From Deltaproteobacteria bacterium (GTDB lineage Bacteria > Myxococcota_A > Polyangia > Polyangiales > JADJMO01), in contig JANYDK010000070.1 in NCBI GenBank assembly GCA_025363655.1, positions 1 to 35,416 of the forward strand: a stretch of 35,416 nt of DNA, in the 5' to 3' direction. Below are positions 5,298 to 30,082 of this stretch, in pieces. The number at the start of each line of letters is the position of its first letter. Within the stretch, counting starts at the first letter, position 1. Below the pieces are notes generated by a model. It did not search any database, was not told the origin of the DNA, and worked only from the letters and a program-made list of their open reading frames with translations. The position numbers were made by a program, and so were the translations under genes.

Positions 5298-5989
5298 TGG
5301 CCTACCTACTCGACTCGAACGTCTTCATTCAGGCGAAGAACCTCTACTACGGGCTCGACTACTGTCCGGCGTTCTGGGATTGGTTGGTCGCAGAGAACGC
5401 GAGCGGTCGCGTGTTCAGCATCGAGAAGGTCGGAGACGAGCTCGAGGCTGGGTCTGACGAGCTGGCGACATGGGCGGGCGCACGAGGAGATGGCTTCTTT
5501 CTCCGACCCACCAACACGGACATCGCCGCGCTCGGAGCAGTGGGCACCTGGGTGACGACCGGTCAACGATACGAGGCCGCAGCCGTCGGCACGTTTTTTC
5601 AGGTCGCCGACTACTACCTCATCGGATATGCGCTCGCGCGCCAACACGTCGTCGTCACGCACGAGATCCCGTCCACGTCGGCGAGGAAGATCAAGATCCC
5701 GAACGTGTGCGTCGGGTTGGGCATCAAGTTTCATGACGCTCGACCTCGGACCGCGCTACGCCTGTTGGCCTGCCCCTTCGGCGGCGTTCACCTGGGCCTC
5801 CTGCCAGTCCTTGTACGACACGGCTCGGCCTGCAAGTTTCCACGCGGAGCGGCCGTTCAACCCGGTGCCTGCCACGACTGCCGCCGAAGCCGACGGCGAG
5901 TCGAAGGCGTAGTCCTGCGCGAATTGCAACAGCGTCGACGATCCCTCGCGGCGGACGAGGACGCCCGTTTCGCGGAGCGTCCGGCGTAG
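5297..5989 (+). CDS. DUF4411 (PIN-like) toxin-family protein with aberrant C-terminus
   Basis: The N-terminus MAYLLDSNVFIQAKNLYYGL and the later LRPTNTDIAALG, AVGTFFQVADYYLIGYALAR, VTHEIPSTSARKIKIPNVC and LGIKF are typical of DUF4411, a PIN-domain-like family found downstream of ImmA/IrrE genes and predicted to be the RNase toxin. Acidic residues D7, E43 (EKVGDE) and D108 (VADYYL) fit a PIN active site. The ATG at 5297 overlaps the antitoxin stop (TGATG), so translation is probably coupled. Recognisable family sequence stops at about residue 146 (position 5735). The following 84 residues are Arg/Pro-rich and read antisense through a DUF4357 remnant, so only the last dozen or so native residues seem lost. 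With its partner gene broken, the toxin is expected to be inactive or silent; this is an inference. Confidence 0.8.
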   Translation: MAYLLDSNVFIQAKNLYYGLDYCPAFWDWLVAENASGRVFSIEKVGDELEAGSDELATWAGARGDGFFLRPTNTDIAALGAVGTWVTTGQRYEAAAVGTFFQVADYYLIGYALARQHVVVTHEIPSTSARKIKIPNVCVGLGIKFHDARPRTALRLLACPFGGVHLGLLPVLVRHGSACKFPRGAAVQPGACHDCRRSRRRVEGVVLRELQQRRRSLAADEDARFAERPA

Positions 5990-6070
5990 CGCGCGGGAAC
6001 CGTCGCTGAGCGAGTCCACTTCCTTCACGCGGGCGGTCGATCCGGCTCGGACGATGAACTGGCCGTCGTC
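5756..6070 (-). pseudogene. C-terminal fragment of a DUF4357 protein
   Basis: On the minus strand, about 104 codons end in a TAG at 5756. They contain GQFIVRAGSTARVKEVDSLS, then ALRRTLRETGVLV and QDYAFDSPSASAAVVAGTGL with NGRSAWKLAGRAVSY. The SPSASAAVV...NGRSAWK core is the DUF4357 signature, found at the C-terminus of GIY-YIG-type nuclease proteins and other defence-related proteins. No N-terminal domain or plausible start codon precedes it: at 6073 the sequence switches directly to the stop of the kelch gene on the same strand in another frame. It is therefore a 5'-truncated remnant. It meets the DUF4411 tail head-on, which suggests that a larger defence or integron-like cassette has been whittled down here. 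Confidence 0.72.
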
Positions 6071-6072
6071 GC

Positions 6073-7812
6073 TCAAGGACGAAAGCGAATCGCGTCGTCG
6101 AGTCCGCCGTAAATCAGCGCCTCCGTACCAGTCCAGACCACCCGCGCACCGAGTCGTCCAGCGAACGTGCCGGGCGGGCTCGTCATCGCGATCCAACTGC
6201 GCGTCACCGGATCGTAGCCGGCACCCGAGGCCGGCAGTGCGCCGGTGGTCGTCCTCCCGCCGAAGACGTAGAGGCGTCCAGCCGCCCACCATCCGAGCAT
6301 CTCGGTGCGCGCGGGGGTCGCGAGGATCGACGCCCCGGGGGTCGGGATGTCGGTCCAGGTGCTCGCCCCGTCGAAGAGCACGCCATCGCCGTAGGCCAAA
6401 CCGCCAGCCTCGTAGCCACCGCCGAAGAAGGCAGCGCTCGAGCCGTCGCTCACGGCATTGGCGGTCGAGTACATGCGCCCCGTCGTGATTGGCAAACCGG
6501 GAAGCATGCGCCAGGTGTCGGACTTCGGGTTGTACGCTGCTGCATCGGCGCAGACCGCCGCGGCGCAACCTCCGCCGCCGTAGATGACCATCTCTTTGCC
6601 GGTCCACACCGCGGCGACCTCGCTTCGTGCTTCGAGCGGTGAGGCCGCCAGCAATCGCCATTTGTCGGCGACCGGATCGTAGGCGGCGCCGTCCACTTGC
6701 TGAATGCCCGTGGAATTGGACCCGCCCCACACGAGCATCTCACCGGTGGTGGTCGACCAGACCGCGCCGAAGGTCGTGCGGCCGCCGATGGGAGGCGCGG
6801 CGCCGATTTTCTTCCACGTGCGCAAGGTCGCATCGAAGATCGCGCCGTCGGTGTAGCTCGTGGCGCCGCCGCCGGTGGCACCACCCCAGACGATCATCTT
6901 CGTCCCGGTCCAGACGGCGCCGTGCGCTTGCCGGACGCCGAGGCCAGCCGCCGGCAGCGCGCTCCACGCGTCGCTCTTCGGATCGTAGCTGGCGCCGTCA
7001 CCGCGATCTCCGATGGGGCTCTGGCCGCCCCACGCGAGCAGCTCCGTGCCCGTCCAGACGGCGCTGAAGAACGCTCGCGCGGTCACGCCGATGCTCGCGG
7101 ACGGAGCCATCGCGACCCACGTGCCTGCACCGCCGAGCGCGGTATCGGTGGGGGTGACGTCGACCTCGAGGACGTCGGCATCGCCCGAAGCGTCACGCAC
7201 TTCGGTGTCCCCGAGCGTGGCATCTCCCGAGTCGAACGCGTCCCGAACGTCGACGCCGGCGTCGCTCCCGCCCGAGGGCAAAAGGACGTGCTCGTCGCAA
7301 CCGTCACCGAAGCACGCGCCGAGGTCGGGGATCTTCGCCGAGACGCACGCCCCGCCGACGCACGTATCCGTTGGCTCGCACAGTACGTCGATGCACACGG
7401 CGCGCATCGCGATCGGTAGCCGCAAGCTCTGATGCTCGACGAAGCTGAGCGCGCGCCGGGCGACGATGCAGCCGCCCTTCGGCTTGACCAAGCAATCGGC
7501 GAGTGAATGACCTCCGACCGATGCCAAGATCTCGATGGCAATTTCGTCGTTGCGCGAGCCGCTGGGAATCACCACGAGGGAGCCGATGCGCCCGGTGTGT
7601 GCGTCGCAGGCGAGGGTTGTGGTCACTGGCGCGACGTCGTCGAGGTTCGGGCCCAGCGTTGCGATGCGAATCGCCGTGCCGCTCAAGTTGCCACTCCCCA
7701 CGCATGGGAGATCGGTGCTCAGCTCGAGGGTGATTTGCGTCGGGGCGCGGCAGGCGGCGACCGTAAGCGATGCGCTGGCGCAGAGCATGAGTTCCAAGAT
7801 CCTGCGAAGCAC
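6073..7812 (-). CDS. Kelch-repeat beta-propeller lipoprotein
   Basis: The start is taken as GTG 7812 or ATG 7788 because both lead straight into a lipoprotein signal ending LTVAAC. The open frame extends upstream to 7935, but that extension is Arg-rich and lacks signal features. After the lipid-anchored Cys there is a roughly 200-residue domain with several Cys pairs and an Asp-rich linker, then at least six kelch-type blades with repeated VWTGTELLAWGG, VWTGTKMIVWGG, GEMLVWGG, VWTGKEMVIYGG, RLYVFGG and VWTGTEALIYGG. Such propellers act as surface binding platforms; no catalytic residues are evident. The last blade ends IYGGLDDAIRFRP, so the propeller is complete although it abuts a gene fragment. 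Surface display is inferred from the lipobox, and the ligand is unknown. Confidence 0.85.
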   Translation of the reverse strand: MLRRILELMLCASASLTVAACRAPTQITLELSTDLPCVGSGNLSGTAIRIATLGPNLDDVAPVTTTLACDAHTGRIGSLVVIPSGSRNDEIAIEILASVGGHSLADCLVKPKGGCIVARRALSFVEHQSLRLPIAMRAVCIDVLCEPTDTCVGGACVSAKIPDLGACFGDGCDEHVLLPSGGSDAGVDVRDAFDSGDATLGDTEVRDASGDADVLEVDVTPTDTALGGAGTWVAMAPSASIGVTARAFFSAVWTGTELLAWGGQSPIGDRGDGASYDPKSDAWSALPAAGLGVRQAHGAVWTGTKMIVWGGATGGGATSYTDGAIFDATLRTWKKIGAAPPIGGRTTFGAVWSTTTGEMLVWGGSNSTGIQQVDGAAYDPVADKWRLLAASPLEARSEVAAVWTGKEMVIYGGGGCAAAVCADAAAYNPKSDTWRMLPGLPITTGRMYSTANAVSDGSSAAFFGGGYEAGGLAYGDGVLFDGASTWTDIPTPGASILATPARTEMLGWWAAGRLYVFGGRTTTGALPASGAGYDPVTRSWIAMTSPPGTFAGRLGARVVWTGTEALIYGGLDDAIRFRP

Positions 7813-9178: not shown

Positions 9179-10351
9179 TTACTTCTTCGCCTTCGTCGCC
9201 TCGACCTGCTGAATCCAGGCCAATTCAGCCGCAAACGCCTTCTCGCGCGGCGCCGCGTTCATCACCGGGGCCGCGCCATCGGGACCCGCCACGCCGGAAG
9301 CGCCATTCGCCCCCGGTGCGCCGGGCGTTCCCGGTTTGCCCGAAGAGGGAAGCTGCGAACAGGGGACCTGTCCTTGCCCGCCGGCCGTCGTCGAGCTGCC
9401 AGGTGCGCCGCCCGCGCCGCCCTTGCCTCCGGGTCCACCTGGTCCGCCCGCGCCCGCGCCGCCACCAGGGCTGGCGAGACGAAGACGCGCCGTGAGCTTG
9501 TCGCGCGCGGCGTTGTCGACGAGCACGTTGATGGTGCCGCCCGGACCGCCGTTGCCGCCAGGAGCACCCGGCAAACCCGCGGTGCCGGGAGTACCGTCTT
9601 TGCCTGATTGGCAATCACCGGAGCCCGCTTCCCCCGCAAGGCCGTCTTTTCCAGGCACTCCCGGAAGGCCCGGCGCACCCGATTGGCCTCTAGCATAAAT
9701 GGTAATCGGGCTGTCGGCGTTGGGGCTGATGAGATATCGCGTCACCCCCAGGTTGGGCACGTCGACGCGAATGAGGGCAGCGTCGGCGTAGTAGGGAGTC
9801 GAGAGCGTGGTGATCGACACGTTCACCACCGGCCCCGGCCCGCCGCTCTGTCCGGGTGCCGCCGCCGCGTCGCCGCCGAACGACGTCGTCAGCATGCAGG
9901 TGTAGACCGGCTTCAGCGTCGAATCGCCGACGCTCGACTTGCCGACGCTGCTCTCGAGCCAACCATGCAGCGTCAGGCCCGACGCCGCCGTCTCTCGCGG
10001 ATCGGCCGACGGCATGAAGACGAATTCCTTCGCTTCGCCCTGCTGCGCCGCGTGATCGGCTTGGATGCGAATGAGCTGCGGATCGATGACCGAGTCGCTC
10101 TTGCCCTGACAACCGCTGTTCGGGTTGGTGTTGCTGCAAGAGGTGCCGTCGGCGAGGCGCGCCACCACCTCGACTTGGAAGGCGTCGCCGGGGCAGAAGA
10201 GCGGCTGACCCGAAGCCGGGTGCACCGCGACGTTGACGACGTTGCGCGGATCGATCTCGAGCTTCTTCGGCCCGCAACCGACGGCGAATGCCGCCACGCC
10301 GACCATCACCGAGATTGCAGAGACTGCCAAGAATGACTCTCGCTCGCGCAT
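9179..10351 (-). CDS. Collagen-like (Gly-X-Y) lipoprotein
   Basis: This 390-aa protein has a lipobox AVGC with the lipidated Cys at residue 26. Residues 30-220 form a beta-rich outer domain with paired Cys (SCSNTNPNSGCQG, YTCML). Two collagen-like Gly-X-Y tracts follow, at residues 222-272 (GAPGLPGVPGKDGLAG) and 294-360 (GGPGGPGGKGGAGG, GKPGTPGAPGANGASG), separated by a non-collagen insert (TINVLVDNAARDKLTARLRL). A short helical tail closes it. Bacterial collagen-like tracts form stalks in surface proteins; two Cys inside the tracts could crosslink chains. The ATG overlaps the stop of the upstream TSP3-OmpA gene (TGATG), so the two are translationally coupled and probably act at the same envelope site. 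Assignment is by composition and repeat. Confidence 0.88.
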   Translation of the reverse strand: MRERESFLAVSAISVMVGVAAFAVGCGPKKLEIDPRNVVNVAVHPASGQPLFCPGDAFQVEVVARLADGTSCSNTNPNSGCQGKSDSVIDPQLIRIQADHAAQQGEAKEFVFMPSADPRETAASGLTLHGWLESSVGKSSVGDSTLKPVYTCMLTTSFGGDAAAAPGQSGGPGPVVNVSITTLSTPYYADAALIRVDVPNLGVTRYLISPNADSPITIYARGQSGAPGLPGVPGKDGLAGEAGSGDCQSGKDGTPGTAGLPGAPGGNGGPGGTINVLVDNAARDKLTARLRLASPGGGAGAGGPGGPGGKGGAGGAPGSSTTAGGQGQVPCSQLPSSGKPGTPGAPGANGASGVAGPDGAAPVMNAAPREKAFAAELAWIQQVEATKAKK

Positions 10352-11406
10352 CAGACGCCTCCTCCCTTCGTCTCGATGGAGACGGGCTTCTTCTTCACCG
10401 GGTTGACCGACGCCACCTGCGCAGCCCAGCACCCTCGTTGCACTTTCTGCCAAACGCCATTGACCACGACGGCCTTGAAGAGCACGCGGCGGTTGCGCGG
10501 ATCGTCGACGCCGTCGCCGACGTTGACGGCAGGGCAGTATTTTCCGTATCCAATCGCGACGAGCCGTCCGCCGTCGATGCCGAAGCCTTGCAGCGTCTGG
10601 GCGACGGCGTGCGCGCGCTTGTCGGTGAGATCGAGGTTGTGCTGCGCGTCGCCCTTCTGCGAAGCGTGCCCTTCGATCTCGAGGCGGTTGATCTCGGGGT
10701 GCGCCTTCAACACCTCGGCCACCTGTCCGAGCGTGCCCTGCGCATTGCCGGCGAGCTTGGCAGAGTCGATCTCGAACTCGATGCGCATCGATTCGGGCAC
10801 GAAAATCATGCTCGATTGCGCGTCGTATTCGACCACCGTGCCCGGCACGCTGTCGGGACAACCGTCGTCGTCGCGATAACCGTTGTAGGTCTCTTGCTGC
10901 TGCGGGCACTGGTCGATGGCGTCGGCGACGCCATCCTTGTCGACGTCCGTTCCGGGGCAACCGTCGTTGGGATTGGGCGCCTGGTTGTCCTCGATGAGCC
11001 CGGGGCACTTGTCCTGCGCGTTGGCGACGCCGTCGTGATCGTCGTCGTCGGAGTTGGAGGGACAGCCGTCGCTCGGATCGGGCGGCTGACCATCTTCCTT
11101 CGCGTCGGGGCACTTGTCCTGCAGCCGGCCGATGCCGTCCATGTCCGGATCTTCGGCCGGGCAGCCGTCGTTCGCCTTCGGCGGGAGGCCATCTTCGGCG
11201 TCGTCGGGGCACGCATCATCGACGTCGGCGATGCCATCGACGTCCTTGTCGGCACCACGATCGGCGATCGCGTACGTCGGGCGCGGCGGCGGGCCACCGC
11301 AGGCGAAGACGTCGACGAGGAGGACGCCGATCGTGAGCGGCGTGCCGTAGCGAAGGAACGAACGGAGTGCGGAGCGAGGGGCCGGTCGCGCGAGCATGGG
11401 GCGCAT
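10351..11406 (-). CDS. OmpA-family lipoprotein with thrombospondin type-3 repeats
   Basis: The protein has 351 aa. A twin-Arg-containing N-terminus and hydrophobic stretch end at VFAC (Cys36). Residues 51-186 are Asp-rich calcium-binding TSP3 repeats (DKDVDGIADVDDACPDDAED, DPDMDGIGRLQDKCPDAKED, DHDGVANAQDKCP, DVDKDGVADAIDQCP). Residues 205-312 form an OmpA C-terminal peptidoglycan-binding domain (IEFEIDSAKLAG, LEIEGHASQKGD, DKRAHAVAQTL, LVAIGYGKYCP, NRRVLFK). A basic tail follows. The family links the outer membrane to the murein and often partners trimeric or secreted surface complexes. It is the first gene of a two-gene operon with the collagen-like lipoprotein and is divergent from the kynureninase-like gene across a 103-bp gap. 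Alternative start: ATG 11397. Confidence 0.92.
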   Translation of the reverse strand: MRPMLARPAPRSALRSFLRYGTPLTIGVLLVDVFACGGPPPRPTYAIADRGADKDVDGIADVDDACPDDAEDGLPPKANDGCPAEDPDMDGIGRLQDKCPDAKEDGQPPDPSDGCPSNSDDDDHDGVANAQDKCPGLIEDNQAPNPNDGCPGTDVDKDGVADAIDQCPQQQETYNGYRDDDGCPDSVPGTVVEYDAQSSMIFVPESMRIEFEIDSAKLAGNAQGTLGQVAEVLKAHPEINRLEIEGHASQKGDAQHNLDLTDKRAHAVAQTLQGFGIDGGRLVAIGYGKYCPAVNVGDGVDDPRNRRVLFKAVVVNGVWQKVQRGCWAAQVASVNPVKKKPVSIETKGGGV

Positions 11407-12876: not shown

Positions 12877-14424
12877 ATGTCGATTCCGTACGACGCGTCG
12901 AGCGGGCCACCGCTCGGGCGCCTTGGCACCCGTGTGCGCGAGACGTTGCTCGCGCTCGTCCCAGCAGGGCTGACGGCGGTGATCGCGGCGAAGATCGCGC
13001 TGCGGCACGTCGCTTCGGTGAACAGCGACGAGCTCTATCTGACGGCGCTCTTTCGCGATATGCGCAATGGCACTCCGCTCGAATGGCATTTGACGCCGGC
13101 GCCCTACTTTTTTCCCGATTGGATTGCCTATGCCCTCTCCGGGGGATTCGGCGACGATCTGGGAAGAGTCTTCGCGGTCTACGCAGCGTTGATGACCCTG
13201 CTCTTCCTCTTCGGGTTCGGGCTCCTCGCGCGCACGCTCTCGGCGCCGAGCTGGCACGGCGTTCTCGTCGGCAGCGCCGTCTTCGCGGCGGTCGCGGCGT
13301 CCGACGGATCGGTGGCGAGGTTCTGGGTCGTTCCCACGTTTCACGGCGGCCTGCTGGCGATGCTCCCGACGGTGCTGGCGGTCTTCTTGGCCGAGCTCCG
13401 TGAGCCAAGGGCGCGCCGTCGGCGCCTCCTCGTGGGATTGACGACGCTGATCGCAGCGTCCGATTTGTTCGTCGTTCCACAGTTCATCTTGCCCGCCGCC
13501 GTGGTCGCGTTGGCGCATCGGCGGCGGCGGCTCGCGACCGAGATCGTGATGACGCCGATCGTGGGCAGCCTCTTCGTGCGAGTGATGGTCCGAGCGCTGT
13601 GGCACTGGCACATCCCTCCGGGGATATCGCTGCCGACGGCGCTGCGGCACGTCACCTCTTCGCGCTATTGGACTGATGCCGCCGACGCGTTCCTGCACTT
13701 GGTCACCGAACAGCCCTTCGCCTTCGTGCTCGCGCTCTCCGGCGTCGCCTATGCTGGATTCGTCGTCAGGCGCGCGAGAGAAGACGGTCACGGCGCGGCG
13801 ACGGCATTGGCCGAATTCCTCATCGCCTCGGCGATCGTCGGTCCGCTGATCGTGACCTTCGCCGGCCTCTACGACGCCCCCATCGCCAATCGTTACCTCT
13901 TGCCGGTGCTCGCGCTCCCACCCGCGTCGCTCTTGGCATTGCGCGCGAGCTGGCCCAAAAACGTGCTCCGCGGCGCTTGCGTCGTCGCGATCGTCGCCTG
14001 CGCGATGCTCTCGCGACGGAGCGACGCCAACCTCGGCACGCCCTACCCGGACGACGTCGCCTGCGTCGACGCACTGGCGACGAAGCATGGGTGGACACGC
14101 GGCTATTCGAGCTACTGGCTCGCCAAACGGTCGAGCCTCCTCTCGCACCGAGGTCTGACGGTACTCGCCGTCGACGACGAGCTACTGCCCTATGAGTGGA
14201 TCACCAATCGCGCTTGGTACGGCGGCGCCGCCATGCAATTCGCCTTGGCGAAAGACGGTGAGACGGCATACCTCGAGGGGTACGCGAAGAAGTGGCACGG
14301 AGTGATGGTGGGAAACTGCGGCGAGGTGGCGGTGTTCCAAATCGGAGACTCGAACGCGACCATCGACGCCAGTGCCGGTGCCGCCGCCCGCGCCCGTCAG
14401 CTCACAGCGGCAGCTGCTCGGTAA
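12877..14424 (+). CDS. Polytopic membrane protein, GT-C-like
   Basis: The ATG at 12877 has AAGGA 5 bases upstream, which decides the start over upstream codons in the open frame. The 515-aa product has roughly 9-11 hydrophobic segments (VFAVYAALMTLLFLFGFGLL, VLVGSAVFAAVAA, LLAMLPTVLAVFLAEL, FAFVLALSGVAYAGFVV, FLIASAIVGPLIVTFAGLY, VLRGACVVAIVACAML). It ends in a roughly 120-residue soluble domain with SSYWLAKRSSLLSHRGLTVL and a WYGG motif. An acidic pair after the first membrane segment (VNSDELYLTALF) resembles the metal-binding DD/DE loop of GT-C glycosyltransferases, so a lipid-sugar-dependent transferase is possible. I do not recognise the exact family. The last 23 bases overlap the convergent kinase gene. 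Confidence 0.75.
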   Translation: MSIPYDASSGPPLGRLGTRVRETLLALVPAGLTAVIAAKIALRHVASVNSDELYLTALFRDMRNGTPLEWHLTPAPYFFPDWIAYALSGGFGDDLGRVFAVYAALMTLLFLFGFGLLARTLSAPSWHGVLVGSAVFAAVAASDGSVARFWVVPTFHGGLLAMLPTVLAVFLAELREPRARRRRLLVGLTTLIAASDLFVVPQFILPAAVVALAHRRRRLATEIVMTPIVGSLFVRVMVRALWHWHIPPGISLPTALRHVTSSRYWTDAADAFLHLVTEQPFAFVLALSGVAYAGFVVRRAREDGHGAATALAEFLIASAIVGPLIVTFAGLYDAPIANRYLLPVLALPPASLLALRASWPKNVLRGACVVAIVACAMLSRRSDANLGTPYPDDVACVDALATKHGWTRGYSSYWLAKRSSLLSHRGLTVLAVDDELLPYEWITNRAWYGGAAMQFALAKDGETAYLEGYAKKWHGVMVGNCGEVAVFQIGDSNATIDASAGAAARARQLTAAAAR

Positions 14425-20551: not shown

Positions 20552-21532
20552 TCAGTGGGCGCGAGCGTGCAGCAGACGGACGTCTCGTGGGCCGAGGCCG
20601 AGCTCCCGCTCGAAGGCCCGTCGCATGCGTTCGGGCCCGTGAAATCCGCAGTCTGCGGCGATGCTCTTGACCGCGCGGTTCGTCGTCGCGAGGAGCGCGC
20701 GGGCCTCCTCGACACGTAGACGTTCGATGAGCTTGGCCGGCGTCAATTGCAGTTGCTCGAGGCAACGACGATGCAGCGTGCGTTGCGAGAGGGCAGCGAG
20801 CTTGGCGAGCTTCGGCACGTCGAGCTGACGGAGCCGCTTCCGAGCCGCAGCGATGGTGGTGCCGAGGGGATCGGACGTGTTGCTCTGCGCTACCAGCACG
20901 TCGCTCCACTGCGATTGGAAGCCCGGACGCCTTGCGTAGAGGACGAGCTGCGCGGCGATGCGATCGGCGAGGGCGGCGTCGCGATCGTCTTCGACCATCG
21001 CCAGCGCCATGTCGATGCCCGTGGTGACGCCCGCCGACGTCCAGAGCGAGCCGTCGCGCACGAAAATGGCGTTGCGATCGACCGCGATCGCCGGCCGAAA
21101 GTGCTGCAAACGCTCGCAAGCAGACCAATGCGTGGCGGCGCGTCGACCGTCGAGGAGCCCGAGGGCGGCGAGCACGAACGAGCCCGAGCACACCGAGCCG
21201 AGCCGACGGGTGACGCCGTGCGCGCGCAAGATCCAGCGGCCGAGACGAACGTCGGCGATGGCCCCGCGGATGGCGCGTTCGTCGCCGCCACTCACCAAGA
21301 CGGTGTCGATGCGCGCCGGCGGAATGCGCGCGAGGCGTACGGTGTCGAGCCGCAGGCCGCTGCTGGTGGTGATGAGCCCGCCCTCGGTGCTGGCGAGGGT
21401 GACCTCGTAGCCAGCGCCATGCGCGCGGGTGGTCTCCTCGGCGACTCGACCCACGGCGGCGAAGACCTCTGCGGGGCCCGTCACGTCGAGGGTCTGGGCT
21501 CCGGGAAAGGCGATCACGAGGACGCGACGCAT
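20552..21532 (-). CDS. GlxA-family transcriptional regulator (DJ-1/PfpI + AraC HTH)
   Basis: This 326-aa protein starts at ATG 21532 (MRRVLVIAFPGAQTLDVTGP), the usual N-terminus of the family; the frame is open further upstream. Residues 1-190 are a DJ-1/PfpI-like domain with the elbow Cys in GSVCSGSFVLAALGLLDGRR and the following ATHW. The C-terminal roughly 110 residues are an AraC-type double helix-turn-helix (LAKLAALSQRTLHRRCLEQL, IAADCGFHGPERMRRAFERE). Family members sense small nitrogen compounds or other metabolites through the first domain. It is divergent from the DJ-1-type enzyme gene at 21594 with 61 bp between the starts, so it probably controls that gene. Confidence 0.92.
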   Translation of the reverse strand: MRRVLVIAFPGAQTLDVTGPAEVFAAVGRVAEETTRAHGAGYEVTLASTEGGLITTSSGLRLDTVRLARIPPARIDTVLVSGGDERAIRGAIADVRLGRWILRAHGVTRRLGSVCSGSFVLAALGLLDGRRAATHWSACERLQHFRPAIAVDRNAIFVRDGSLWTSAGVTTGIDMALAMVEDDRDAALADRIAAQLVLYARRPGFQSQWSDVLVAQSNTSDPLGTTIAAARKRLRQLDVPKLAKLAALSQRTLHRRCLEQLQLTPAKLIERLRVEEARALLATTNRAVKSIAADCGFHGPERMRRAFERELGLGPRDVRLLHARAH

Positions 21533-21593
21533 TGGCAGATAATAGCTCTTCGTTGACAAACCTGCCACGCGGCGCAGCGCTAGCTTCGGGAGC
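21533..21593. promoter_or_regulatory. Divergent promoter/operator between the GlxA regulator and DJ-1 gene
   Basis: This 61-bp gap must hold both promoters. A TTGACA at 21553-21558 reads toward the DJ-1 gene, but no good -10 follows at 17 bp. On the minus strand TGGCAG-17 bp-TATTAT reads toward the regulator. TGGCAG (21533-21538) and CTGCCA (21562-21567) form an inverted repeat with a 23-bp spacer, a possible operator. All are weak by themselves. Confidence 0.35.
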
Positions 21594-22289
21594 ATGAACC
21601 TCGGAATGCTCCTCTATCCAGGCCTGACGCAGCTCGATCTCACCGGTCCCTACGAGGTGCTGAGCCGCGTTCCAGGCGCGCGCGTGCACCTCGTGTGGAA
21701 GAAGACGGGCGTCGTCGAAGCCGACTCCGGGCTCGGCATCGTCGCCACGACGAGCTTCGAGACGTGTCCGCCGCTCGACCTCGTCTTCGTCCCCGGAGGC
21801 TTCGGCCAGATGGCGCTGATGAACGACGCGATCGTCCTCGAGTTTCTTCGCACGCAAGGCGCCCGTGCTCGCTGGGTGACGTCGGTGTGCACCGGCGCGC
21901 TCTTGCTCGGCGCCGCCGGTCTCCTCGAAGGCTACGACGCGGCCACGCACTGGATGTACATGGAGCTCCTGCCCGCCTTCGGGGCGCGCCCGGTCGATCA
22001 GCGCGTGGTCGTCGATCGCAACCGCATCACCGCCGGCGGCGTGACGGCGGGCATCGACTTCGGACTCCGCGTGCTCGCCGAGCTCGGCGGCGAAGATCTC
22101 GCGAAGGGCGTGCAATTGGGGCTCGAATACGATCCGCATCCGCCCTTCGACTGTGGGCACCCGCGCGTCGCCGATCCTCGCATCGTCGCCGCCGTGCGCG
22201 CGCAGTTCGCGACGCGAATTTCTCAGCGGCAAGAGCAGGCACGCCTCGGTGTGCGTGCCGAGCTCACCACACCACCTTCCCCGGCATGA
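21594..22289 (+). CDS. DJ-1/PfpI-family protein, isonitrile hydratase-like
   Basis: This 231-aa protein starts MNLGMLLYPGLTQLDLTGPY. It is a single DJ-1/PfpI domain with the nucleophile Cys in SVCTGALLLGAAGLLEGYDA, a Glu near the N-terminus and ATHWMYMELL after the elbow. The pattern SVCTGALLLGAAGLL with GGVTAGIDFGLRVL is typical of isonitrile hydratase (InhA-type) and related proteins. This group hydrates isonitriles to formamides, but many relatives have unknown substrates. The adjacent divergent GlxA-type regulator has the same fold and probably recognises a related ligand. The last 26 bases overlap the 3' end of the convergent lipoprotein gene. Confidence 0.9.
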   Translation: MNLGMLLYPGLTQLDLTGPYEVLSRVPGARVHLVWKKTGVVEADSGLGIVATTSFETCPPLDLVFVPGGFGQMALMNDAIVLEFLRTQGARARWVTSVCTGALLLGAAGLLEGYDAATHWMYMELLPAFGARPVDQRVVVDRNRITAGGVTAGIDFGLRVLAELGGEDLAKGVQLGLEYDPHPPFDCGHPRVADPRIVAAVRAQFATRISQRQEQARLGVRAELTTPPSPA

Positions 22290-23274
22290 GCGGCCCCGCC
22301 TTCGGCGGCTTCGGCACCGGCGGCGGAGGCCAGGTCGCCGTCGGCTTCTCGCGCATCGCCGGGCGCGCATCGGGCGGCGGGACGAGCGCGGCGCTCAAGT
22401 CCTTCCAAGCGATTCCACCTTGGTCGGGCGCGTAATACGGGTTCTCGAAGGAGGTCGCACCGAGGTACCGCTCGCCGTAGACGTTCTGCTTGGCACCGCT
22501 CGACCAAATCGTCTCCAAATCGTACTTCTTGGTGTCGCCTTCGAGGAGCAGCTGGAGCGAGCCGACGTTGCGTCGATCGGTCGCTACCAAGTTCGTGAGC
22601 TCCATGGTCCCGTACGACCACTCCTCGATCATCGTCTCGTTGACGATCACGTACTCACGATAGCGTCGCGGATCGTCGGGCTTTCCCAAGCGCACGTGCA
22701 ACACCGCCGCGAGGCGCTCGGGATGGGCGCGCACGTCGGCCTCGAGCACCGCGTGTTGCGAACGATCGAGGAAGCGAATCGGCCCCGACGAGGTGACGCG
22801 CGCGAACACGGCTTCAGGCTTGAATTTCACCTCGATCAGGTGCGCGCCGTAGCGGACGTCGCCGAGCCCGAGCACCGTCGGCCAGCCGGCCGTCCAGGCG
22901 AAGCGAACGCGTTGGTAGTCGTCGCCGACGAGCAGGCGCGCGAACGGCTCGGGGTTGGCCCGGGCGTCGAGCTCGTACTCGGTGGTGCCCATCTGCGACA
23001 TCGCGCGCGAGAGGAGCTGCTTGGTCGGAACCGCTGCTCGAAGCTCGTCGATTTGATCGACCGTCGTCCACGTGTAGAGCGTCGACTTCGCGAAGTGCTG
23101 ATCGTCGACCTGCGCGGCGTCGAGCCACGCGAGGACGGCCGTCGCCGGACGGCTCTCCTTCGTCGCCGACGTTGCCGGATCGGCGGAGACCGGCGCGCCC
23201 TCTTTGCGTTTGCACGCCGGCACGATCAGCGGCGCGAGCGCTACCAGTCCGACGAGCAGATGAAGACGAGCCAT
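22264..23274 (-). CDS. Unknown lipoprotein, 336 aa
   Basis: The ATG at 23274 gives MARLHLLVGLVALAPLIVPA, ending in a lipobox (VPAC). The open frame continues 12 codons upstream without signal features. The mature part has no family I recognise. It contains LLSRAMSQMGTTEYELDARA, WTAGWPTVLGLGDVRYGAHL, then LDRSQHAVLEADVRAHPERL, and ends in a Pro-rich tail (PPPDARP, TWPPPPVPKPPKAG). The composition suggests a globular alpha/beta periplasmic or surface domain of about 260 residues. It lies just downstream of the pseudokinase gene on the same strand (28-bp gap) and may be co-transcribed with it. A role in the same envelope process is therefore possible but unproven. Confidence 0.78.
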   Translation of the reverse strand: MARLHLLVGLVALAPLIVPACKRKEGAPVSADPATSATKESRPATAVLAWLDAAQVDDQHFAKSTLYTWTTVDQIDELRAAVPTKQLLSRAMSQMGTTEYELDARANPEPFARLLVGDDYQRVRFAWTAGWPTVLGLGDVRYGAHLIEVKFKPEAVFARVTSSGPIRFLDRSQHAVLEADVRAHPERLAAVLHVRLGKPDDPRRYREYVIVNETMIEEWSYGTMELTNLVATDRRNVGSLQLLLEGDTKKYDLETIWSSGAKQNVYGERYLGATSFENPYYAPDQGGIAWKDLSAALVPPPDARPAMREKPTATWPPPPVPKPPKAGPLMPGKVVW

Positions 23275-23302: not shown

Positions 23303-25144
23303 CTAGTCACATTTCTTCAGGAATTTCCCGCACGGCGGCTTCACGCTGGCCGACGGCTTGGGAGCGACGACGGGTGCGGCGACCAACGTGTAGACGCGCG
23401 TCATCGGCGTCTTCGCCTTGACGGTGAAGGTGTCGGTCGACGGCTTGTATCCGACCTTGGAGGCGACCACGGTGTGCGAACCGGGTGAGAGCATCGCGGC
23501 CTTGGTCGGATCGGCGAGCGACTTGCCGTCGACCGTCACCGCGTCGCACACCGGGTTGCACTGCACTGTGATTTCGACGCCGTCCTTCGGCGGAGGATCG
23601 ACGATGGCGGCAGAAGCGCTCGTCGCCGGGGCGTCGTCGTCCTTGCCCGGCTTCTTGTCGTCGTCTTTGGCCGGCTTCGCGTCGTCGTCCTTGCCCGGCT
23701 TCTTGTCGTCGTCTTTCGTCTTCTTCGACGACTCGGCCTTGTCGTCGTCTTTCGTCTTCTTCGACGACTCGTCCTTGTCGTCGTCTTTCTTGTCGCTCTT
23801 GTCGCTCTTGTCGCTCTTGTCGTTCTTGTCGTTGCTCGCGGTCGTGCTCTCGTCCTTCGGCTCGCCGCGGAGGAAGAGGAAATATGCAGCCGCGCCGCCG
23901 CCACCGAGGACGATGAGGAGGAGCACGATGATCAGCGGCGCCTTCGAGGACTTCGGCGGAGGCGGAGGCACCGAGACGGCGCCCATCGGCGGACCGGGCG
24001 GACCGGGCCTCATCGACGGCGGCGCCGCGGGCGGTGGCCAGTTCTGCGACGAGGGGATGATGGGGCCGGGAATGGCGGGGCCCGCGAGGTGCGCAGGCAC
24101 GCCCGGCACCGGCGGCATGCGACCGTCGTCTGCCGCCGGCAACGTCGCCTCGCCCACGAAGGGCGCCGCCTTCTTCATCTCGGCTTGCGGATCGGGCGCA
24201 TATTGGGTCGACTTGAATTTGTTCGCCGCCGGCTTCACCGGCTCCGGATCGGCCGCATATTGCGTCGATTTGAAGCGATTTCCCCCGGCCGCCGGCGCCG
24301 CGAGCTTCATCGGACCGGGCGGCTGACTGGGCGTGGCGATGGCGCGCTCGAAGGCCTCGGCGAAGGCGCTGACCGTCGTGAAGCGGAGCTGCGGCGAGAC
24401 GGCGAGCGCGCGCGCGAAGACCTCTTCGAGCCCACCAGGGAGCGTGACGCCGAGCTCGGACGCTCGTTGCAACGTCGAGCCCCGCTGCGTCTTCAGCTCT
24501 TGTTGAAATCGCGCGGCGTCGAGCCCTTGCGGGGTCAGCGAGCGCCAGAACGAGGCGCCGGTGAGCATGTAGAAGGCGACGAGCGCGGCGCCGAAGACGT
24601 CGGCGGTGGACCCGACCGGCGCGCCATCGACCTGCTCCGGCGCCATCCAAGGAGCCGCGTGCGCGAACGCTTCGTCGGTCGGCGCGGCCGCGCGCGCGAG
24701 GTTCATCCCGAAATCCATGAGGCGGACGACGCGCGGGCTCTCCCCGTCGACGAGGACGTTGGTCGGCTTGAGCGCGTGATGGAAGAGACCGACCGCGTGC
24801 GCGGCGTCGATCGAGCGTGCGAGGATCTTGAGCGTGCTACATGCCGAAGTCGGGTTGAGCCGCGGCACCGCGAAGTAGCCGACGCGATCGGTGGCGGTGA
24901 AGAGCGCATTGCCACGCGCGGTGTCGACGCCGGCGTCGATGACGTGGATCACCTGCTCGGGGGGTAACGTCGCCAGCTGCGCGTGCACCTTCTGCAGCGC
25001 CGCGGTGACGTCGGGACGCTGCCCGACCTCGGGCGCATAGAGCTTCAGGGCCACCTCGCGACCGGTGGAATCAGCGGCAAAATAGCTGGAAATCGCGCCA
25101 TCGTCGTGGAGCAAAGTCCGAATCTGGTACTTGCCGGCGACCAT
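23303..25144 (-). CDS. Predicted membrane-anchored pseudokinase with PEGA domain
   Basis: The protein is 613 aa from ATG 25144; a TTG at 25174, overlapping the stop of the upstream gene, is a possible earlier start. Residues 5-270 are a Hanks-type kinase fold. VALK (K34), DFG (144-146) and APE (168-170) are kept. The Gly loop is degraded (LLHDDGAISSYFAA) and the catalytic HRD is HHA (residues 122-124, FHHALKPTN), so the catalytic Asp is absent. Two direct peptide repeats (NRFKSTQYAADP, NKFKSTQYAPDP; 289-319) follow, then a Pro-rich linker, one membrane segment (403-425), a Lys/Asp-rich stretch (428-505) and a PEGA domain (523-590). It is probably a signalling scaffold or ligand receptor rather than an enzyme. 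Confidence 0.88.
   Translation of the reverse strand: MVAGKYQIRTLLHDDGAISSYFAADSTGREVALKLYAPEVGQRPDVTAALQKVHAQLATLPPEQVIHVIDAGVDTARGNALFTATDRVGYFAVPRLNPTSACSTLKILARSIDAAHAVGLFHHALKPTNVLVDGESPRVVRLMDFGMNLARAAAPTDEAFAHAAPWMAPEQVDGAPVGSTADVFGAALVAFYMLTGASFWRSLTPQGLDAARFQQELKTQRGSTLQRASELGVTLPGGLEEVFARALAVSPQLRFTTVSAFAEAFERAIATPSQPPGPMKLAAPAAGGNRFKSTQYAADPEPVKPAANKFKSTQYAPDPQAEMKKAAPFVGEATLPAADDGRMPPVPGVPAHLAGPAIPGPIIPSSQNWPPPAAPPSMRPGPPGPPMGAVSVPPPPPKSSKAPLIIVLLLIVLGGGGAAAYFLFLRGEPKDESTTASNDKNDKSDKSDKSDKKDDDKDESSKKTKDDDKAESSKKTKDDDKKPGKDDDAKPAKDDDKKPGKDDDAPATSASAAIVDPPPKDGVEITVQCNPVCDAVTVDGKSLADPTKAAMLSPGSHTVVASKVGYKPSTDTFTVKAKTPMTRVYTLVAAPVVAPKPSASVKPPCGKFLKKCD
23630..23835. repeat. Low-complexity Lys/Asp-coding repeat inside the pseudokinase gene
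   Basis: Imperfect copies of units such as GTCGTCGTCTTTC and CTTGTCGCT repeat along about 200 bp. They encode KKDDDKD, SKKTKDDDK and KPGKDDD blocks just outside the membrane segment. The length is likely to vary between strains through slippage. It is part of the coding sequence and keeps the frame throughout. Confidence 0.75.
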
Positions 25145-25170
25145 GTCGGAAGCGGCGAGGCGCGGCGCTT

Positions 25171-25890
25171 TCAAGGCTTCTTCTCTTCTTTTTTCTCGGC
25201 AGGCTTCTCGGCCGGGGCCGGCGCGATCGACTGGATGGCGGCGAGGATGGCGCCGTCGGCGTCGGTCTTGTCGTCGTCGTCGACGAAGCCGACCCCGATG
25301 ATCATGTCGACGTCGGTGAGGTGATCGACGAAGGCGAGGAGCGGCCCTTTCTTGGCGCCGCGCTGCGCACCTTCGACTTGATAGAGGTCGACCTCGTGGC
25401 CGCCGACCTTGATCACTTTGTCGGCTTTTTTCCAGGCGATTTTCTGTTTCGGCAGCTTGAGCGCGAGGCGCCCGGAGAGCGTCACCAGGGCGGCGTCGCA
25501 CGCGGCGTGGTTCTTCGCCACGTCTTTCGAGGCGGCGGTGCTGAAGGCGACGGCGAGCGCCGGACCCTCGTCGGTGAGCTGCGCGACGGTGGCCGCTTCT
25601 TCCTGCGCGTAGTGCCAAGTCGAAGGCGGCGTGAACACGAGCCCGGCCCCGTGCGCGATGCGCGCGGTGGTGCTCTTGTCGGCGACGCAGGCCTCGGCGA
25701 GCGCCTCACACTTCGGCGGAGGCGGAGGAGGCGGAGGCGGCAGGTCGATCGGCGCCGGCTTCGGCTTCGGACTGACGGTGGCGACCGGAGGCGGCGCGGG
25801 AGGAGGCGGCTTGCTGCCGCAACCCATCGTGAGCGCGACGGCGAAGAGCCCGGAAGTGGAGATTGCGGTGGAGATTGCGCGTGCGGACAT
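25171..25890 (-). CDS. Pro-rich lipoprotein, 239 aa
   Basis: The ATG at 25890 begins MSARAISTAISTSGLFAVAL and reaches a lipobox TMGC. A Pro-rich linker (KPPPPAPPP, LPPPPPPPPPK) follows. The mature domain contains two early Cys (KCEALAEACVADK), a strand-helix region (GAGLVFTPPSTWHYAQEEAA, HAACDAALVTLSGRLALKLP) and VGGHEVDLYQVEGAQRGAKK. The C-terminus is Lys/Glu/Pro-rich. No family is recognised; the WHYAQEEAATVAQLTDEG stretch resembles no catalytic motif. The gene ends 26 bp before the pseudokinase ATG and overlaps its alternative TTG start, so the two are probably one operon. The lipoprotein could be an extracytoplasmic partner of the pseudokinase. Confidence 0.8.
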   Translation of the reverse strand: MSARAISTAISTSGLFAVALTMGCGSKPPPPAPPPVATVSPKPKPAPIDLPPPPPPPPPKCEALAEACVADKSTTARIAHGAGLVFTPPSTWHYAQEEAATVAQLTDEGPALAVAFSTAASKDVAKNHAACDAALVTLSGRLALKLPKQKIAWKKADKVIKVGGHEVDLYQVEGAQRGAKKGPLLAFVDHLTDVDMIIGVGFVDDDDKTDADGAILAAIQSIAPAPAEKPAEKKEEKKP

Positions 25891-26033: not shown

Positions 26034-27104
26034 ATGCGTCCTCACCTCTCTCGTCGTCACCTCTCTCCCTTCGCCCTCGCCGTCGTCGCGATCGCCAGCC
26101 TCCACTGCGGCGCCGGTGGTCTCTGCCCAGAGCTCAAGGGAGGCGGCGCGGCCTCAGCGCACTTCACGGACGAGGCCGAGGCCAACGTCACGCTCCGCGC
26201 CTTCATCGAAGCGTCTGGCGATCTCGCGGCGCTCGCGGACAAGGTCGAGGCCGAGGTGAGCAGCGCCTGTCTCGGCATGGGCCACGACCTCGGCGTCCCC
26301 GACGCGGAGATGAAGCCGAAGGACGGCGCCGGCGGAAAGGTCAGCGGCGCCTGCACGCCGGTGCACGCGAAGATCGACGCCATCCTCAAGGCCGCTGGTG
26401 TGGCGCGCTTGCAAGCGACGATCACCCCGCCGCAGTGCACGGTGAGCGCGAGCGCCGGCGCCGAGTGCAAGGGCCGTTGCGAGGTCACGGTCGACGACGG
26501 CTATCTCATCGCCCACTGCGAGCCAGGAAAGCTCTCGGGCACCTGCGAAGGCTCGTGCGAGGGCAAGTGCGAAGGCACGTGCAACGGCACTTGCGAGGGA
26601 AAGTGCTCGGCGACGAACGCCAAGGGCGAGTGCGCCGGAACCTGTGAAGGCACCTGCCGCGGCCACTGCGACGCCACCTGCCACGCGAGCTGCAAGGGCG
26701 AATGGAAGGCCCCGAAGTGCGCCGTCGAGGTCAAGCCGCCGAGCGCCAGCGCCGACTGTCAGGCCAGCTGCAAGGCCCACGCGGAGATGACGGCGCAGTG
26801 CACCGACGCGAGCGTGAAGGTGCACGTGTCGTCGAGCGCCGGTGAGCTGGCGAAGCTCGTCGCCACCTTCGAGGCGCACCTGCCGGTCCTCATCAAGGCA
26901 GAAATCGCCTATGGAAAGCGGCTCGCCGGCGACATCGCGGTGCTCGTGCACGTCGCCGAAAAGCTCCCCTCGGCGATGGCCAAGGCCGGCCTCCACGCCG
27001 CCGCCTGCGTGTCGGCCGCCGCGCAAGCGACCGTCCACGCCCAGGCGTCCATCCACGTCAGCGTCGAAGCCAGCGCCTCCGTCAGCGGCAAAGCGGGCGG
27101 TTGA
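26034..27104 (+). CDS. Cys-repeat (CxGxC) lipoprotein
   Basis: The ATG at 26034 starts MRPHLSRRHLSPFALAVVAI with a lipobox ending ASLHC. After a helical domain there is a Cys-rich run at about residues 170-225 with the repeat C-(E/N)-G-x-C: GTCEGSCEGKCEGTCNGTCE, then CAGTCEGTCRGHCDATCHAS. Further Cys pairs follow (KCAVEV, DCQASCKAHAEMTAQC). The final 110 residues are predicted helical, Ala/Val/His-rich and nearly Cys-free (VLVHVAEKLPSAMAKAG, HAQASIHVSVEASASVSG). The regular spacing suggests a disulfide-ladder or metal-binding rod on the cell surface. I know of no function. It is divergent from the Pro-rich lipoprotein gene across a 143-bp gap. Confidence 0.85.
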   Translation: MRPHLSRRHLSPFALAVVAIASLHCGAGGLCPELKGGGAASAHFTDEAEANVTLRAFIEASGDLAALADKVEAEVSSACLGMGHDLGVPDAEMKPKDGAGGKVSGACTPVHAKIDAILKAAGVARLQATITPPQCTVSASAGAECKGRCEVTVDDGYLIAHCEPGKLSGTCEGSCEGKCEGTCNGTCEGKCSATNAKGECAGTCEGTCRGHCDATCHASCKGEWKAPKCAVEVKPPSASADCQASCKAHAEMTAQCTDASVKVHVSSSAGELAKLVATFEAHLPVLIKAEIAYGKRLAGDIAVLVHVAEKLPSAMAKAGLHAAACVSAAAQATVHAQASIHVSVEASASVSGKAGG

Positions 27105-29048: not shown

Positions 29049-29221
29049 CTTCTCGCGCGGCGTAGCCACCACCCACCCAGGGGCCTCCACACCCCCGCCC
29101 CCTCCCTGCTGCCCACCGTCCTCACCACCAACGCGCCACTTCCACCCACGTTTTCCTGCTCTGACATACGCGTATGACGGACGCCTTCGGGCATGGCGCA
29201 CCCGCTGCAATCGAACGGTGC

Positions 29222-30082
29222 ATGCACACTCCTCGCGCGCTGATCTCGGCAGCTTCGGTTCTCACGTTGGTGCTCTCGCTCGGTTGCAGCAGTGAAGGTG
29301 GCGGTGGTGGCGCCGACCTCGACGCTGGGTCGGGCTCGTTCACGATCGACACCGGCAAGGGCTCGCCGAGCGAGGGTGACGGAAGCACGGCGTTTCAAGT
29401 CGATGGCACCGCGCCGCCGACGCCGGACAGCACCGGGAAGTGCGAGGCCAACCTCACTGGCACGGTGCGCGACTTCCGCTTCACGCACCCCGACTTCGAG
29501 CACTTCGAGGGCGACGGCGAGAAGGGCGTCGTCCTCGAGCTCCTCGGCAAAGACGAGAAGCCGGTATGGAACGACGCGATCTCGCACGCGTTCTACACCA
29601 ACAAATCGAATTTCGATCAGTGGTACCGCGACGTCTCGGGGACCAACCTCAACATCCCCGTGAAGCTCGATCTGGTGAAGGGCGCGGGCACCATTCTCAC
29701 CTACGATCGCCCCGAGTTCTTCCCCGCCGACGGCCTCGGCCTCGGTGACGAAGGTCGCACCGACGACGGCAAGCTCCACAACTTCGCCTTCACCTTCGAG
29801 CTCCACACGGAGTTCGCCTATCGCGGCGGCGAGGTCTTCACCTTCACCGGCGACGACGACCTCTGGGCCTTCGTCAACGGCCACCTCGTCATCGACCTCG
29901 GCGGCGTCCACTCCGCGCAGACCGCGAGCATCGACCTCGATTCGGTGGCGACGAAGATCGGATTGGAGAAGGGAAAGAACTATCCGATGGCTATTTTCCA
30001 GGCGGAGAGGCACACGACGGCGTCGCACTTTCGGATCGATACGTCGATCGTGTTCACCAACTGCGATCCGATCATTCGCTAG
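29222..30082 (+). CDS. Fibro-slime domain lipoprotein
   Basis: The ATG at 29222 ([20 protein letters not shown], then GCSS) gives a lipoprotein signal; the frame is open 16 codons upstream without signal features. The mature protein has a Gly/Asp/Ser linker, then a fibro-slime domain. Its key features are [20 protein letters not shown], the central [20 protein letters not shown] and [19 protein letters not shown], and a final strand ([14 protein letters not shown]). The fibro-slime domain was first described in slime-mould secreted proteins and also occurs in many Bacteroidetes and Myxococcota surface proteins; it is related to PA14-like beta-sandwiches and is thought to bind carbohydrates. 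The GDDD run may bind calcium. It is divergent from the CBM9-like gene. Confidence 0.9.

Follow-up and report, generated by a model that had tools for sequence, protein, structure and literature searches.

A conserved lipoprotein-pseudokinase gene pair forms a previously unnamed envelope module in Polyangiales

Bacterial pseudokinases are numerous, but for very few of them is a partner or a function known. Several described systems resemble parts of the family reported here. MviN of Mycobacterium tuberculosis, a member of ActPs3, shares with this family its place in the membrane, a pseudokinase domain on the cytoplasmic side that is directly followed by a candidate phospho-Thr tail, and a short activation segment, and the phosphorylated tail of its pseudokinase domain recruits FhaA (PMC12599244). 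ActPs3/MviN is defined by degradation of all three catalytic motifs (VALT, no HRD, no DFG; PMC12599244); MviN is without the Lys, HRD and DFG and fails to bind ATP, whereas the present family retains the Lys, the catalytic-loop Asn and DFG, and has a PEGA domain, a lipoprotein partner and a cysteine tail, all three of which MviN lacks. EssB/YukC likewise is a pseudokinase that crosses the membrane once, bears an outer domain and acts as a non-catalytic scaffold, but it is part of a secretion apparatus, has all three catalytic motifs degraded and lacks both PEGA and a lipoprotein partner (PMC12599244). PknB-type receptor kinases share the order of kinase domain, linker, one transmembrane (TM) helix and outer domain, and PknB is the best structural match; the family differs from them in having lost the catalytic Asp and the alpha-C Glu, and in carrying PEGA where they carry PASTA. 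Myxobacterial pseudokinases are not new as such, since Myxococcus xanthus is reported to have 11 among its 99 kinases (PMC6791715). The review of pseudokinase families mentions neither PEGA nor myxobacteria (PMC12599244), and the lineage-specific pseudokinase-lipoprotein pair described here was not found in the literature searched, most subscription journals lying outside its scope.

The pair reported here was found in a 35,416-nucleotide stretch of DNA (the window) from a soil myxobacterium. The minus strand between 22264 and 25890 holds three genes: one for a 239-aa lipoprotein (25171..25890), one for a pseudokinase-TM-PEGA protein recognised with Pfam and AlphaFold2 (23303..25174) and one, downstream on the same strand, for a 336-aa lipoprotein (22264..23274). 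The open reading frame list gives an over-long pseudokinase product of 771 aa; the most likely start, judged from alignment, is TTG at 25174 (LKAPRLAASDMVAGKY), yielding a 623-aa protein, because relatives begin at an aligned MTAPxLxPGxVVAGKY. With this start, the pseudokinase start codon lies over the lipoprotein stop in a TTGA (25171..25174, minus strand) that couples the two genes and recurs as a 4-bp overlap in most relatives. The overlap described in the first-pass annotation is thus real, while its extent is 4 bp from the revised start and not 448.

A search with the 239-aa lipoprotein gave strong matches in 29 of 145 genomes of the order Polyangiales, and in all 29 of these first loci the pseudokinase gene directly follows the lipoprotein gene. 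A profile search then found the lipoprotein in 47 of 184 Polyangiales genomes. The 18 newly found genomes served as a held-out set, in one of which the contig ends, leaving 17 loci; a kinase-fold gene follows the lipoprotein gene in every one of them. The two genes are therefore adjacent in 46/46 kinase-bearing loci (29 first and 17 held-out) from 46 Polyangiales genomes, as had been proposed for the upstream lipoprotein, and the pair is present in about a quarter of the Polyangiales genomes searched. Among the named carriers are Sorangium cellulosum, Polyangium and a Byssovorax MAG. Outside Polyangiales, a 284-genome sample of the phylum gave no strong match, only weak ones (E 5e-6 or worse) that mostly covered short N-terminal stretches. 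A divergent lipoprotein homologue (L189, G002:C1109:9500-16500; E 1.5e-11) lacks the Cx6C motif described below and has no kinase-fold neighbour.

Genes flanking the pair differ from lineage to lineage, which delimits the unit to these two genes; conserved operon neighbours, considered as a clue to function, fell into several contexts with none common to all genomes. An apparent Gld-type ABC transporter cluster, judged by eye, lies upstream of the pair in some genomes. Two further partners suggested by the first-pass annotation did not survive this comparison. The downstream 336-aa lipoprotein is outside the conserved module, as its homologues in genomes G002 and G004 lie elsewhere and it occurs at none of the 28 relatives' first-read pair loci (a paralogue is present in the window's own genome, at G000:C38:21550-22182). 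The active kinase at 14402 lies at a distance of 7.4 kb and shows no consistent linkage to the pair. Overall, the two genes make up a genuine envelope module that had no name before, and for which we infer a function below.

The pseudokinase domain spans about residues 14-284 (24323..25135, minus strand, as for all features of the pair below), and the AlphaFold2 model of the protein combines a confident kinase fold (pLDDT mostly >90; nearest solved folds PknB, PknA, PknI and PknF) with a disordered linker, a TM helix at 412-434 and a PEGA fold. Pfam finds Pkinase in 29/29 members, and the match to the window protein (4.2e-16) covers profile positions 95-259 only. The proposed pseudokinase-PEGA architecture is borne out by both methods and kept in relatives. 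Within the domain, VALK with the beta3 Lys44 (25043..25054), DFG (24707..24715), APE and HHALKPTN in place of HRDxKPxN (24758..24781) all stand where they had been placed, and Ala134 occupies the catalytic Asp position. The glycine loop is degenerate in the window copy (LLHDDGAIS, 25088..25114), where its loss is strongest; as a family trait this loss does not hold, with each of the first two glycines retained in 20/29 relatives. Beyond the losses named in the first-pass annotation, the window copy has a Val for the alpha-C Glu, a shortened activation segment and a rewritten P+1 part.

Across the family, the catalytic Asp is gone in 43 of 46 members with no fixed substitute (Ala in 29, Gly in 12, Ser in 2; Asp in 3), and the alpha-C Glu is likewise missing from 43 and kept by three. 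Nucleotide-binding positions are mostly retained: beta3 Lys or Arg in 43/46 (Lys 36, Arg 7), the catalytic-loop Asn (Asn139) in 45/46 and the DFG Asp (Asp154) in 43/46. The 30 best-scoring kinases of the window genome all keep both the catalytic Asp and the alpha-C Glu, so loss of the Asp is not the genomic background. With a kinase fold and at least one of the Lys, HRD Asp and DFG Asp missing, the domain has the makings of a Hanks-type pseudokinase, and from its sequence we predict that phosphotransfer has been lost. It is possible to imagine instead an unconventional enzyme, binding nucleotide through Lys44, Asn139 and Asp154 and moving phosphate, AMP or another group without the HRD Asp. 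The conservation of exactly these residues and the Asp retained in three members speak for this, as do SidJ and SelO, which illustrate that kinase folds without the Asp can have other activities and which count to some extent against a purely scaffolding role. The loss of the alpha-C Glu in 43/46, the short activation segment with its rewritten P+1 part and the replacement of Asp by Ala, Gly or Ser indifferently argue the other way, and we consider such an enzyme improbable.

The motif signatures of the pseudokinase families in the review (PMC12599244) do not fit the window protein. It retains VALK and DFG, which ActPs3/MviN does not. ActPs2 has the beta3 Lys changed to Arg, the HRD Asp to Asn, DFG deleted and a long activation-loop insert (PMC12599244), while here the Lys and DFG are kept, the Asp is replaced by Ala and the activation segment is short. 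HHA takes the place of the GLW that stands for HRD in the GLW family, Lys and DFG that of the beta3 Arg and DYD of the DYD family, and the TM helix sets the protein apart from DLHK and CP1, which have no transmembrane segment. Its score against NCBIfam NF033483 (PASTA receptor kinases) is 85 bits, below the cut-off of 450. The nearness of the fold to PknB, PknA, PknI and PknF does invite the reading that the domain allosterically regulates a specific active kinase, for instance in a PknB-like back-to-back dimer, and the large kinase complement of the window genome (at least 155 Pkinase matches) could include the partner. As no active kinase stands consistently beside the pair, the one in the window being 7.4 kb off and neighbours varying, we give this reading a very low probability.

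In a phylogenetic tree the family forms one side of a branch that separates it from the sampled active kinases (SH-aLRT 100); a first tree had taken in the kinase-less protein of locus L072, whose placement there is meaningless. Estimates of dN/dS for the kinase domain range from ~0.09 to 0.38 over six pairs and are below those of the PEGA part or the linker in most pairs, so that the domain is under purifying selection despite its missing catalytic residue. This constraint, together with Ala, Gly or Ser at the site in 43 members, excludes a pseudogene or a sequencing error. Orthologues with an intact HRD motif had been named as evidence against a pseudokinase: the great majority agree with the claim in lacking the Asp, and the three that do not are two members of one genus with HRDLKPQN (L184 in G408 and L185 in G411), which branch near the family base, and L058 with HLDLKPTN, which is nested inside the family. 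Loss of the Asp is consequently the family rule and not an invariant, and parsimony on the tree places two changes at the site. L184 and L185, which combine an ALK beta3 Lys and DFG with PPDA/PPDS instead of APE, are possibly active relatives.

A further conserved feature lies behind the kinase domain. The motif T-[MLIV]-x-[FLMIV] occurs within 50 residues after the domain in 34/45 members where shuffled sequences predict ~2.8; by set, it is present in 22/28 of the first loci (1.8 expected) and 12/17 of the held-out ones (1.0 expected), counts that are not all independent because close relatives are included. Behind active kinases of the window genome the same motif is at the expected level (3/30, with 2.8 expected). 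The window copy represents it weakly, because two FKSTQYAxDP repeats (24194..24274), with Thr304 and Thr323, stand instead as a divergent version just past the kinase domain in the same stretch. A second candidate site is Thr166 in the activation segment (PTDEAF, 24677..24679), whose counterpart in aligned active kinases is the activation-loop Thr; a Thr or Ser is retained here in 19/29 members (Thr in 16, Ser in 3).

The constant partner, whose gene adjoins that of the pseudokinase in all relatives that could be read, has a signal peptide ending in Cys24, a Pro-rich linker and a single folded domain (AlphaFold2 pLDDT 87). The residue after the lipoprotein Cys is variable (Asp in three members) and gives no clear sign of the target membrane. 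Neither Pfam nor PDB yielded a credible sequence match to the window lipoprotein. Its structural model (domain at 25216..25683), compared with Foldseek and VIA-align, matches PsbP, Apa, LpqN, Tsi3 and Mog1 with Z up to 9.9 and, in the best rows, rmsd of 3.1-4 A over 112-142 residues; VIA-align Z values are 9.7 for PsbP 2vu4, 8.9 for LpqN 6e5d and 7.8 for Mog1 1jhs. On this modelled structure the lipoprotein has a PsbP/Mog1/DcrB-like superfamily fold. LpqN and DcrB are likewise envelope lipoproteins. Although LpqN, DcrB, PsbP and Mog1 share the fold, no sequence similarity to them was detected, and two traits are peculiar to the lipoprotein of the pair, namely the gene pairing and a Cx6C motif with consensus CExLxExC. 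In the window this motif is CEALAEAC (25687..25710); Cys61 and Cys68 are both invariant among 29 aligned members, and all 18 held-out lipoproteins have Cx6C. On the other side of the pair, a divergently transcribed lipoprotein-like gene with tandem CEGTC/CEGKC repeats (26034-27104, plus strand) shares the pair's intergenic region.

Beyond the TM helix (23873..23941; AlphaFold2 and hydropathy), the pseudokinase protein continues in a Lys/Asp-rich stalk (23630..23857) that is disordered in the model and Pro/Ala-rich in relatives, its Lys/Asp composition not being conserved. The PEGA domain (aa 533-600, 23375..23578; pLDDT about 95) matches PF08308 above cut-off (23.6 bits against 20.8, E 5e-5), and PEGA is found at E <= 0.001 in 9/29 members. 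Its first strand contains CNPVC (Cys539 and Cys543, 23546..23560), a conserved CxPxC, and the protein closes with CGKFLKKC (Cys615 and Cys622, 23309..23332). This Cys pair ends every complete member, with a consensus of CGxFLxxC, typically CGKFLKRC. Strong full-length matches to a PEGA-tail profile came from 26 genomes, all 26 of which also encode the lipoprotein. The remaining PEGA proteins give weak matches, most of which leave out the tail. The AlphaFold2 model of the tail has low confidence and gives no information on its cysteines. The CExLxExC motif is acidic and the CGxFLxxC tail basic in most lineages, and we infer from these sequences that the two may be in contact.

One divergent second copy bears on which parts of the module belong together. 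At L072 in G138 (G138:C353:31000-44000, about 5860-7779 of the reverse strand), the lipoprotein gene is followed by a gene for a 397-aa protein that has the TM helix, a domain resembling PEGA and the cysteine tail of the family but no kinase domain, which identifies the link outside the cell, between the lipoprotein and the TM-PEGA-tail part, as the constant one. The kinase-less protein carries three copies of the Thr motif. Its cytoplasmic part contains two near-identical QGTMQLSxENMAEVQARIAAAIQQK repeats. That the outer part does without the kinase fold here favours a mainly structural tether, wherein the lipoprotein and the PEGA/cysteine tail would connect the membrane with the envelope, while the pseudokinase would be no more than a folded cytoplasmic anchor for another envelope machine, with no phospho-signal; EssB/YukC of type VII secretion is a precedent (PMC12599244). 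Such a tether does not sit well with a kinase domain that in most pairs is under tighter constraint than the rest of the protein and retains nucleotide-binding residues, nor with the strong enrichment of the Thr motif, and we think it unlikely, if by no means negligible.

We favour, at roughly even probability, a trans-envelope receptor made up of the two gene products, with the pseudokinase as its phospho-regulated scaffold; by analogy, the best reading is that this scaffold would work like mycobacterial MviN while standing outside the MviN family. The lipid-anchored PsbP/Mog1/LpqN-like lipoprotein would bind the periplasmic PEGA domain and cysteine tail of the single-pass protein and so form the sensor of a putative signal, with cysteines perhaps bonded within or between the partners. 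The cytoplasmic pseudokinase, presumably without phosphotransfer, would serve as a scaffold or docking platform. Another active Ser/Thr kinase of the cell would phosphorylate the juxta-kinase Thr motif, the activation-segment Thr or both, and the phospho-site, possibly with a nucleotide-bound fold, would be presented to a reader such as an FHA-domain protein. By-eye reading of the pair's neighbour families recognised no FHA gene. In a more specific version, to which we give a low probability, the acidic CExLxExC loop would pair across the periplasm with the mostly basic CGxFLxxC, possibly through a disulfide opened by redox or mechanical stress, upon which the nucleotide-bound pseudokinase would expose a phospho-Thr docking site.

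The family lends itself to direct comparison, as the obligatory lipoprotein partner, the kinase-less variant and the Asp-keeping relatives supply natural versions of one receptor in which the contribution of the pseudokinase can be tested, and the carriers Sorangium cellulosum and Polyangium are culturable. With at least 155 Pkinase and 35 PEGA matches, the window genome (G000) has a very large signalling repertoire. Elsewhere in the window, inspection by eye indicated a reading frame whose Gly-x-x repeats resemble collagen (9179-11212, minus strand; GAPGLPGVPGKDG), a fibro-slime-like protein (29174-30082, plus strand) and two DJ-1/PfpI-type genes in head-to-head arrangement (20552-21595, minus strand, and 21594-22289, plus strand), one of which has an AraC-like C-terminus.
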